Below are positions 38,444 to 41,969 of a DNA stretch of 64,000 nt, in pieces (the stretch's first letter is position 1; every line of letters begins with the position of its first letter). Position numbers and translations under genes: made by a program. The notes under the pieces were generated by a model, which was not told the DNA's origin, searched no databases, and saw only the letters and a program-made list of their open reading frames with translations. Source of the DNA: an uncultured Candidatus Peregrinibacteria bacterium (GTDB lineage Bacteria > Patescibacteriota > Gracilibacteria > Peribacterales > Peribacteraceae); assembly GCA_903825315.1 (NCBI GenBank), contig CAIKAD010000002.1:62001-126000 (forward strand). The letters run 5' to 3'.

Positions 38444-40261
38444 TCACCCAATCGACGCTTTCAGCTTCCTCTCCTTCACATCCGAGACGGTGGCAAAGAC
38501 GAATTCGTCAACGGGAACCGTCACTTGCTTCTTGGTGGCCACGTTCCGAACGGCAACCGCGTTCTGTTCCACTTCCTTATCCCCGATGACGAGCAGGTAC
38601 GGGATCTTCTGCCCTTCCCCTTCCCGTATGCGCTTGCCAAGAGAGTTATCGTGACTCATCAACTGGACACGCAGCCCCTCACCCTTAAGACGCTCCGCCA
38701 GCTTCTGCGCGTACGCTTCGTGCGGTTCCGCGACGGGAAGCAGCGCGATTTGCACGGGAGCAAGCCAGAGAGGAAACAGACCTGCAAATTGCTCGATGAG
38801 GAAGCCCACCAAGCGTTCATGGGTGCTGAGCGGCGCGCGGTGGATGCAGATAGGCGTCTTCTGCGTACCATCTTTGTCCACATACGTGAGCCCGAGCTTG
38901 CCGGGAACATCAAAATCCACTTGGTTGGTTGCGAGCGTGAACTCGCGTCCGATGGCGCTCCACACCTCGACGTCGATCTTGGGGCCGTAGAACGCCGCTT
39001 CGTTAGGTACCTCAACAAAATCGATCTTCGCCTTCTTCATCGCAGAGCGAACCATGTCTTCGGTCTTCTTCCACAGTTCCGGTTCGTTCACGTACTTCTT
39101 TCCGAGTTCCCGGGGATCATGGAGAGAAAGCCGCATCACGTACTTCTGGATATCGAATAATTTGAAGTACTTGAGATACAGTTGCAGCACCGAGATGAAC
39201 TCCTGCTCAAACTGCTCCTCTGAGCAGTAGATGTGTGCATCGTTCATCGTGAGCGACCGTACGCGCATGAGACCAAAGAGCGCGCCGGAATCCTCGTAAC
39301 GATAGTTGTGGCCGTATTCCGCAAGGCGCATCGGCAGGTCACGGTAGCTCCGCAATCCCGATGCGAAGATCTGGTGATGGTGCGGGCAGTTCATCGGCTT
39401 GAGGTAATACTCCCCTTCCTCGTTGGGCAGCTTCATCGGCGGGAACATGCTCTGCTTGTAGTGCGCCAGGTGCCCCGTCTTTTCGTACAGCCGCCCTTTG
39501 GCAATGTGCGGAGTACGCACGCGCAGATACCCGTACGCTGCCTCCGTCTCCTTGGCCAGCCTCTCGATCTCATCCGTAATGATCGTCCCCTTGGGCGTCC
39601 ACAGCGGGAGCCCGGGTCCCACATCCTCCGAGAACAGGAAGAGATCCAGCTCCTTCCCCAGCTTGCGGTGATCGCGCTTCCGCGCCTCTTCCAGCATGAG
39701 AAGGTGCGCATCGAGTTCCGCCTTGGACGTGAACGCCGCCATGTAGATGCGCGTAAGTTGCTGCCGCTTTTCGTCGCCCCGCCAATACGCTCCCGCGAGA
39801 CTCATGAGCTTAAAGGCATCCCGAGAAATGTCCTTGAGGTTGCTCACGTGGCCGCCGCGGCACAGGTCCGTAAACGTCTCTTCCCCCTTCTTGTTCACGT
39901 TGACGTAGTGCGTCACTTCCGTCGCACCTTCCTTCTCCAGATCCTCGATCAACTCCACTTTAAACGGCTGCTTGCGCGCGCTCCAGAATTTTTTAGCTTC
40001 ATCCGGAGAAAGCGTATCGACCCGAAAGGTCTGCGCCTCTTTGAGAATCTTCTTCATTTCCGACTCAATCTTGGGAAGCGCCTCCTCCGAGACCGGCTTG
40101 GAAAAAAGAAAATCGTAGTATGCGCCTGTGTCGATGGGAGGACCGATGGATATCTGCGTGTCCGGATACAGCCGCTGTACAGCCTGCGCAAGAACGTGCG
40201 CGAGGGAGTGGCGGATCTTATACAGGTCATCGACCTGCTGTTCTGCGTTTTGGGAGGACAT
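38444..40261 (-). CDS. thrS: threonyl-tRNA synthetase (no TGS domain)
   Basis: A class II synthetase of 605 residues. It begins directly with the N2 editing domain (HSLAHVLAQAV, residues 18-28; the later Cys/His zinc-like motif CRGGHV), then the catalytic core with MNCPHHHQIF, motif 2 region YRYEDSGALFGLMRVRSL, motif 3 region HRAPLSTHERLVGFLIEQFAG in part, and the C-terminal anticodon-binding domain. The ubiquitin-like TGS domain of about 60 residues that normally starts the protein is missing. Expression is probably controlled by the leader peptide and terminator just upstream. Confidence 0.94.
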   Translation of the reverse strand: MSSQNAEQQVDDLYKIRHSLAHVLAQAVQRLYPDTQISIGPPIDTGAYYDFLFSKPVSEEALPKIESEMKKILKEAQTFRVDTLSPDEAKKFWSARKQPFKVELIEDLEKEGATEVTHYVNVNKKGEETFTDLCRGGHVSNLKDISRDAFKLMSLAGAYWRGDEKRQQLTRIYMAAFTSKAELDAHLLMLEEARKRDHRKLGKELDLFLFSEDVGPGLPLWTPKGTIITDEIERLAKETEAAYGYLRVRTPHIAKGRLYEKTGHLAHYKQSMFPPMKLPNEEGEYYLKPMNCPHHHQIFASGLRSYRDLPMRLAEYGHNYRYEDSGALFGLMRVRSLTMNDAHIYCSEEQFEQEFISVLQLYLKYFKLFDIQKYVMRLSLHDPRELGKKYVNEPELWKKTEDMVRSAMKKAKIDFVEVPNEAAFYGPKIDVEVWSAIGREFTLATNQVDFDVPGKLGLTYVDKDGTQKTPICIHRAPLSTHERLVGFLIEQFAGLFPLWLAPVQIALLPVAEPHEAYAQKLAERLKGEGLRVQLMSHDNSLGKRIREGEGQKIPYLLVIGDKEVEQNAVAVRNVATKKQVTVPVDEFVFATVSDVKERKLKASIG

Positions 40262-40288: not shown

Positions 40289-40356
40289 AAAAAAACAACC
40301 CTTCGCTCTGTGAGGAAGGGCGCAATCGTGTTCTGCAGTGCCCTCCTCACACAGAG
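40289..40356 (-). terminator. attenuator terminator in the thrS leader
   Basis: On the minus strand CTCTGTGTGAGGAGGGC (40356-40340) pairs with GCCCTTCCTCACAGAG (40321-40306), with small bulges, and a run of seven T follows after GAAGGGTTG (40295-40289). It ends 27 bases before the thrS start codon. The last codons and the stop codon of the Thr leader peptide lie inside the first arm. Confidence 0.85.
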
Positions 40357-40394
40357 GTCGTAGTCGTTGCGGTCGTGGTGAGGGGGCGGTGCAT
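40347..40394 (-). CDS. threonine-rich leader peptide of thrS
   Basis: A 15-codon open frame, MHRPLTTTATTTTSV, with seven Thr codons (ACC, ACG, ACC, then ACG, ACT, ACG, ACC) among codons 6-13. Its stop TGA overlaps the first arm of the terminator. Known leader peptides of amino-acid operons have exactly this design: ribosomes stall on the regulatory codons when the charged tRNA is scarce. Here a stalled ribosome would cover the first arm and block the terminator, so thrS would be expressed when Thr-tRNA is low; completed translation would free the arm and stop transcription. The mechanism is an inference; the codon run and hairpin are seen directly. Confidence 0.8.
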   Translation of the reverse strand: MHRPLTTTATTTTSV

Positions 40395-40403
40395 GACGAA
40401 ACA

Positions 40404-40412
40404 AGTATAGCA
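40404..40412 (-). promoter_or_regulatory. extended -10 promoter of the thrS leader
   Basis: On the minus strand TGCTATACT (TATACT at 40409-40404), nine bases before the leader-peptide ATG at 40394. The -35 region is weak, as expected with an extended -10. The leader mRNA would begin within about three bases of the leader ATG. Confidence 0.55.
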
Positions 40413-40493: not shown

Positions 40494-41957
40494 TCATGCG
40501 TTCTTCACGAACCCGCACTCCTGTTCCATGGCATGGATTTCGCGGAGGAGCTGGGGGTCGTTCTGCATGCGCTCTTCAATCTTCTCCACGGCGTTCATCA
40601 CGGTGGTGTGGTCGCGCCCGGAGAACACCTCGCCAAGCCGGACGTAGCTCATGACGAGATGTTTCTTGCCCAGGTACATCGCAATCTGCCGCGGGAAGAG
40701 AATCTCGCGTACGCGGGACTGGCCCAGCATGTCCTGCACGGAGACGGAGTAGTAGCGGCTCACGGCTTCGAGAATTTCCTGGAACGTCGCCTTGCGCTTC
40801 TCCGGCGTCTCGAACCCCGTAGGCACATCCGCTGCGTACGGGTCTTTGCTGAGCTTACGCATGATCTCGGCAATACTCTTCACGGTGGGCATCCGCTGCT
40901 CCAGCTCGTACAGCGCCACCGCCTGCATCAGAATGCCTTCCAGCTCACGGATATTCTTGGTGGTGTGCTCGGCAATAAACTGCAGCACCGTCATATCCAG
41001 AAATATTTCGTACTCCGCCGCCTTTTCGATGAGGATCGCCAGCCGCGTCTCGTAGTCCGGCAACGCCACGTCGGCGATCATGCCGCGTGCGAAGCGGGAG
41101 GTGAGGCGGTCCTCGATCTGCAGCTCCTGCGGCGGTCGGTCGGCGGAGATAATAATCTGCTTGTGCTCCTCGTACAGCGCGTTGAATGTGTGGAAGAACT
41201 CCTCCTGCGTACGCTCGGTGCGCGCAAGGAACTGGACGTCGTCGATGATGAGCACGTCCACCTGGCGGTACCTGCGCCGCAGCCCCTCCATCTTCTGGTG
41301 CTGGATCGCCTCAATGACGTGGTTGGTGAACTCCTCCGTGGTGAGGTAGACGACCGTCGCCTTGGGTATCTGCTTGAGAATGGCATTGCCCGTCGCCTGC
41401 AGGAGGTGCGTCTTGCCCAGACCCACTCCGCCGTAGAGGAAAAGCGGATTGTATTTTCCGCCGGGCTGCGAGGCTACCGCCTGACACGCGGCATGTGCGA
41501 GCCGGTTCGACGGTCCCACGATGAAGTTATCCAGTTGGTACCGGGGATTGAGAATTTTGCTCACGATCCCTTCCGCCAGTTTCACTTCTTGCTTGCCGGG
41601 CAGCTTACGCCGCTTGTGCTCCGGAAAGAGCTGGAGGATATCGATGGAACGCTCCGGATTGTCCTTGAGGCCCACATCCACCTTGTAGACGATCTGCCGG
41701 ATGCTGGGATCCAGCTCCTGCGCCTCCTGCAACGTGATGGCGCGGTAATGTTCCATGTGCCAGTTGAGGAACATGGGAAGCGGCAAGCCTACCACCAGAT
41801 TCCCCTCCTCCTTGCCGAGTACCGTCGTGTTGCGGAACCACGTGATAAAGAGCCCGCGCTGGACCTTGGGCTCGAGCCTTCGTATGACGTCGATCCAGAA
41901 ATCGCGCAGAGTGATATCGGAAGCAACGGCCGGTGCGGGAGGGGCAGCGACGGTCAT
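40494..41957 (-). CDS. dnaA: chromosomal replication initiator DnaA
   Basis: AAA+ initiator that opens oriC. Domain I is at residues 15-100, a short linker follows, then the AAA+ domain (about 130-350) with [11 protein letters not shown], Walker [10 protein letters not shown], and sensor motifs. Domain IV (about 385-485) carries the DnaA-box signature region ([15 protein letters not shown]). The length of 487 residues is typical. I use the ATG at 41957; the longer frame starts at TTG. There is no dnaN or obvious oriC next to it; the site-2 protease gene lies 12 bases upstream on the same strand. Confidence 0.95.
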
Positions 41958-41969
41958 GGAAGATGGCAA

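Follow-up and report, generated by a model that had tools for sequence, protein, structure and literature searches.

How might thrS, the gene for threonyl-tRNA synthetase, be controlled in a bacterium in which a short, threonine-rich open reading frame (ORF) and a terminator-like hairpin precede it? We addressed this question at a locus in a 64-kb window (the whole stretch of DNA analyzed here), whose source had been predicted to be a CPR-type genome, an assignment borne out by the closest named relatives of the host, Candidatus Peribacteraceae/Peregrinibacteria. On the minus strand, the elements listed in Table 1 follow one another in the order dnaA, P1, leader ORF, segments 1, 2, and 3, U-tract, P2, and thrS, with dnaA (40494-41969) lying just 5' of the leader region and pointing in the same direction as thrS. 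The Pfam domains of the downstream product back its identity as ThrS, so that the gene behind the leader charges the very amino acid whose codons fill it. Its start codon is the ATG at 40261; the T-run ends at 40289, leaving the gap of 27 nt that had been claimed. We consider it very probable, on the sequence comparisons presented below, that thrS is under the control of a three-segment, Thr-responsive, ribosome-mediated transcription attenuator.

Table 1. Features of the predicted thrS attenuator (window coordinates)
Feature	Position	Strand	Description	Basis
P1	40404..40412	(-)	Extended -10 TGC-TATACT of leader promoter, without clear -35	Sequence; TANNNT enrichment
Leader ORF	40347..40394	(-)	MHRPLTTTATTTTSV	Seven Thr in eight consecutive codons; ATG 9 nt past -10; without Shine-Dalgarno
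Segment 1	40340..40356	(-)	CTCTGTGTGAGGAGGGC; antiterminator 5' arm, overlaps leader stop	Folding, pairing tests
Segment 2	40306..40321	(-)	GCCCTTCCTCACAGAG; arm common to antiterminator 1:2 and terminator 2:3	Pairing tests
Segment 3	40299..40304	(-)	GAAGGG; terminator 3' arm	Pairing with CCCTTC
U-tract	40289..40298	(-)	TTGTTTTTTT; of intrinsic terminator	Sequence
P2	40269..40274	(-)	TATCCT; possible proximal -10, 7 nt before thrS ATG, 3' of terminator	TANNNT enrichment
thrS	38444..40261	(-)	Threonyl-tRNA synthetase, 605 aa; regulated gene	PF00587, PF03129, PF07973

The sequence agrees with the original prediction of an extended -10 element followed by an ATG that opens a 15-codon frame with Thr in seven of eight consecutive positions (ATG CAC CGC CCC CTC ACC ACG ACC GCA ACG ACT ACG ACC TCT GTG TGA; stop codon at 40349-40347). 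Across all six frames of the window, this is the sole stretch of eight codons with at least seven Thr codons, and 60 simulated 64-kb sequences contained none; a pattern search of the window's own genome found no further Thr-run leaders. The position of dnaA, just upstream and in the same direction, would suit a plain dnaA terminator accompanied by a chance Thr-rich frame, but the simulations make a chance run of this kind negligible, and the run recurs with mixed codons and competing hairpins in 27 genomes; we therefore give this explanation practically no weight.

This recurrence emerged from a comparison of the kind that had been proposed with the original prediction, for which targeted searches and sequence stretches supplied thrS upstream regions of the family, class, and phylum to which the host of the window belongs. 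Among 153 distinct upstream regions from Patescibacteria, 28 contain a sense-strand short ORF with at least five Thr in nine codons and 16 contain one with at least seven in nine, whereas the reverse strand has none for Thr. At the 7-in-9 level, every other amino acid is confined to at most one sense-strand region, making Thr the only amino acid that is strongly enriched. Curation left 27 thrS leaders, including that of the window, of 11 to 20 codons with five to eight Thr codons each, which end about 75 to 160 nt 5' of thrS. They all belong to one class: 13 come from the window's family, 10 from the 11 tested members of family f6, and one each from families f2, f5, f16, and f29. All four Thr codons are in use (ACC, 68; ACG, 48; ACA, 28; ACT, 27), and hence it is the peptide, not a DNA repeat, that is conserved. 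Of the 28 regions with a leader, 23 also have a terminator, as opposed to 21 of the 125 regions without a leader (p 7e-11). The 66 thrS regions from other Patescibacteria classes yielded no convincing leader; weak Thr ORFs in them (e.g., locus L342) were rejected for their unconvincing layout. The distribution of the leaders is patchy, with eight gains or losses needed on the Peribacteraceae ThrS tree, and repeated loss or gain is therefore likely. Relatives thus retain both the Thr run and the pair of competing hairpins though the sequence differs, in support of the claim of a Thr leader peptide with termination ahead of thrS. The presence of the same device with different sequences in at least 26 related genomes suggests that CPR bacteria probably use a switch of the classical leader-peptide type.

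Folding of the leader region in the window gave -39.4 kcal/mol, compared to -27.2 kcal/mol for shuffled sequences (z -3.65). The most stable structure is a large hairpin, in which 40356-40340 pairs near-perfectly with 40321-40306 and which, as predicted, holds the leader stop codon within its first arm. The T-run had been described as directly following this hairpin, but about 10 nt intervene between the two. An ordinary intrinsic terminator has its hairpin directly before the T-run, and the large hairpin therefore cannot itself be one. The gap is filled by GAAGGG (40304-40299), which together with CCCTTC (40320-40315) forms a smaller hairpin adjoining the U-tract, so that segment 2 enters the terminator as its 5' arm. 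As both pairings need segment 2, 1:2 and 2:3 are mutually exclusive. By its position and pairing, the large hairpin is the predicted antiterminator, and the real terminator, which separates the leader from the gene, is the 2:3 hairpin with segment 3. It had been stated that there was no obvious separate antiterminator; a separate terminator and antiterminator are present, segment 3 having been missed. A generic promoter/terminator scan of the leader region gave no match because the promoter is without a clear -35 and the terminator is off the scan's template.

These structures bear on a simpler, steric scheme that formed part of the original prediction, in which the terminator consists of the 1:2 hairpin and the T-run, and its 5' arm is masked by a ribosome that stalls on the Thr codons, permitting read-through. 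The stability of the large hairpin, the highest of any structure in the leader, and its overlap with the stop codon fit such a scheme, but the 3' arm of 1:2 is set apart from the T-run by just the segment whose own hairpin adjoins it, segments 2 and 3 co-vary over 25 loci with segment 3 no more than 3 nt from the T-run (see below), and segment 1 would be hidden as well once a ribosome reached the stop codon, which would block termination under both conditions. Segment 1 would be masked by a ribosome that has arrived at the stop codon rather than by an early-stalled one, and we regard the steric scheme as very unlikely.

The sequences of the three segments differ from family to family (e.g., CGGAGGT/ACCTCCG/CGGAGGT, CGGCAG/CTGCC/GGCAG, and GAGGAAGG/CCTTCCTC/GAAGGG), and yet the pairings persist. 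In a swap test on 25 loci, with segment cores set by eye, own 1:2 pairs averaged -13.7 against -8.2 (sd 0.55) for swapped ones, and own 2:3 pairs -9.9 against -5.5 (sd 0.44), with p <= 5e-5 in both cases. Swaps weaken both pairings, and hence the three segments change together. An automatic terminator search combined with a 1:2 pairing test gave a combined p of 6e-18 over 19 loci, a value that ignores kinship. The layout is likewise constant, with segment 3 ending at the T-run or within 3 nt of it across the 25 loci. In every one of them, segment 1 lies between -15 and +17 nt of the leader stop, within reach of a terminating ribosome by the generally known size of its footprint, and three to seven Thr codons per leader are far enough 5' to leave segment 1 clear. 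The codons and the stop are accordingly placed such that the location of the ribosome would pick the structure. In all leader loci, segment 1 is G/A rich and Shine-Dalgarno-like (GGAGG, CGGAGGT, GGAAGG; 40350-40339 in the window), this stretch sitting at or directly 3' of the leader stop, and segment 2 looks like an anti-Shine-Dalgarno sequence.

The other end of the module, where P1 is separated by nine bases from the leader ATG at 40394, is also a recurrent arrangement: a TANNNT motif lies 6 to 10 nt 5' of the leader start in 23 of the 27 leaders, as against about four expected by shuffling, and a Shine-Dalgarno sequence is absent from all 27. Eight leaders outside the Peribacteraceae additionally have a TTGAC-type -35. 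The -10 spacing and the missing Shine-Dalgarno sequence together imply that transcription would start no more than about 3 nt from the start codon and that the leader ORFs would be translated in a leaderless or near-leaderless manner. The earlier claim that sensing occurs through translation of such an ORF is supported to this extent, with the start position deduced from that of the -10. As a separate observation, many genes in the window (e.g., 6669-, 8514+, 13612-, 23251-, 25805+, 31249-, and 58215+) have a -10-like hexamer 6 to 9 nt ahead of the start codon and lack a Shine-Dalgarno sequence. Though the start codons in this survey were picked partly by that very feature, it suggests that leaderless transcripts are widespread in the window's Peribacteria genome.

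A similar element, P2, raises the possibility that thrS is expressed chiefly as a leaderless mRNA from its own proximal promoter, with the upstream module producing a short terminated RNA or controlling a minor fraction of the transcripts. Besides the TATCCT 7 nt 5' of the thrS ATG and the frequency of such elements in the window, this explanation can draw on the enrichment of TANNNT 6 to 10 nt before the thrS ATG in leader-bearing Peribacteraceae (11 of 13, with 1.5 expected), where the hexamer sits at 7 to 10 nt, on a similar -10-like element before thrS in relatives that have no leader ORF, and on the fact that thrS would be without a Shine-Dalgarno sequence on the read-through RNA. Leader-bearing members of other families, however, show no such enrichment (4 of 14, with 2.7 expected) and still keep the attenuator, and the retention of the Thr codons together with the two hairpins implies a role for read-through. 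We accordingly see this explanation as rather unlikely, if well ahead of the steric scheme; P2 nonetheless indicates that attenuation may control only part of thrS transcription in the Peribacteraceae, and that a portion of it, perhaps the larger one, could escape the attenuator.

We propose the following sequence of events for the attenuator. RNA polymerase would start on the leader ATG itself or no farther than about 3 nt from it, as the position of the -10 suggests, and a ribosome would initiate on the (near-)leaderless ORF. With Thr-tRNA plentiful, the ribosome would reach the stop codon inside segment 1 and its footprint would hide this segment, whereupon 2:3 would pair to form the terminator before the U-run and transcription would end short of thrS. 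With charged Thr-tRNA scarce, the ribosome would stall at the first Thr codons, leaving segment 1 free to form the 1:2 antiterminator first, and the polymerase would proceed into thrS, resulting in more synthetase. If translation is absent, 1:2 would form too, making read-through the expected default. In the window, hairpin 1:2 is much stronger than 2:3, and termination therefore hinges on the ribosome truly holding segment 1 unpaired. In the Peribacteraceae, a basal level may come from the second promoter, which lies directly ahead of thrS and escapes attenuation; the attenuator would then add starvation-induced expression on top.

A T-box or another leader that binds a tRNA or metabolite would be an obvious alternative device, given that thrS is T-box controlled elsewhere, for instance in a Chloroflexi genome. 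The leader region of the window, however, gave no Rfam match, and specifically no T-box (RF00230) sequence with stem I and antiterminator, even at E <= 1, and the approximately 110 nt between the leader -10 and the terminator are already occupied by the ORF and hairpins, leaving no room for such a leader, which we hence judge extremely unlikely. At gathering thresholds, there was no cis-regulatory Rfam match in 16 other leader loci either, a threshold that also missed the Chloroflexi T-box. That T-box, in locus L089, matches RF00230 with 88.3 bits (E 6e-20), just under the Rfam cutoff of 93; T-box leaders are likewise carried by other Chloroflexi thrS genes (L101, L105, and others). Weak "MTEDSTTF" ORFs before Chloroflexi thrS were rejected as leaders, lying just 3' of the T-box terminators.

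Cognate leaders were also sought upstream of other synthetase genes in 7 to 12 genomes, covering the Ile/Leu/Val/Met, Ser/Pro/His/Gly-type, Phe, Trp/Tyr, and Asp/Asn/Lys enzymes. The only one found precedes asnS of a member of family f6 (G052, locus L419, minus strand), where a -10-like TTATATT is followed about ten bases on by the ATG of an Asn-rich leader, MRHNNLNSNNNNYSVE, in the same three-segment layout: ACTCGGTTGAGTAGTTCT as segment 1 over the stop, AGAACTACTCAG as segment 2, and CTGAGT as segment 3, and then TTTTTTT. This asnS leader stands alone, as the other asnS-like regions retrieved have none. Thr leaders occur beyond thrS as well. Genome G096, which has one before thrS, has a second (MKNFTTTTTTTTTPRSGAKSL) with a terminator 5' of pheS (L270, 852-1178), preceding a 60-aa ORF of unknown function (MCNYELRSEGSHSSELKPYTPLELAPALRDEIAALDTASKVRLSSAPRDPFGDGDYISMT). 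Its congener G171 has no leader at thrS (L160) but carries a Thr leader (MNRLSFVTTTTTTTTSLRNRG) and terminator before a small ORF starting MTNISQEGPNGSSLDE (L360, around 1480-1840). As a tentative generalization, in this class of Patescibacteria, evolving leaderless three-segment attenuators with read-through as the default might replace T-boxes on synthetases (widely for Thr and at least once for Asn) and act on a few small proteins of unknown function. If so, any loss of translation, not threonine shortage alone, would turn these genes on.

Several known systems share parts of this design. T-box control of thrS in Firmicutes concerns the same gene and signal (uncharged tRNA-Thr) and likewise places a terminator before thrS; it differs in that the tRNA is bound directly without a leader peptide, and it is not present in the window. 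Attenuators of the Escherichia coli trp type have four segments with a 1:2 protector, such that absent translation leads to termination, whereas in the thrS module it should give read-through. Among synthetase genes, pheST of gammaproteobacteria and leuS and trpS of Streptomyces are known or predicted to be governed by leader peptides (PMC1262725); these also combine a cognate-codon leader peptide before a tRNA synthetase gene with an antiterminator and terminator, but they pertain to other amino acids and other phyla. The original prediction named T-boxes and a translational operator as the known controls of thrS, which is incomplete, as leader control has been proposed, on weak features, for thrS and alaS of Streptomyces lividans (PMC8079986). 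The S. lividans thrS leader peptide is also leaderless but has only two Thr (MKRVRPFLETTPGFVPAR) and lacks a clear terminator, in contrast to the five to eight Thr and defined terminator/antiterminator of the type described here. A study from 2010 put the leader peptides known until then in the Proteobacteria and Actinobacteria alone and itself added hisS/hisZ of bacilli (PMC2965389). We found no earlier report of a leader-peptide attenuator from Patescibacteria in the part of the literature searched, and that of thrS is apparently unreported, in a phylum where it is unexpected. If confirmed, it would mean that ultra-small, reduced CPR genomes retain amino-acid-specific gene control tied to translation and that these bacteria couple transcription with translation, with leaderless initiation serving as the sensor. 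A parallel for such sensing is the trpLE(G) attenuator of Sinorhizobium meliloti, whose RNA begins at the ATG of a leaderless 14-codon ORF encoding a 14-aa leader (PMC7298713). Both systems join a short leader ORF with a run of regulatory codons to two exclusive structures and a terminator; the S. meliloti system uses Trp codons, governs a biosynthesis gene, and belongs to the Alphaproteobacteria, and no sequence relationship between the two has been shown.
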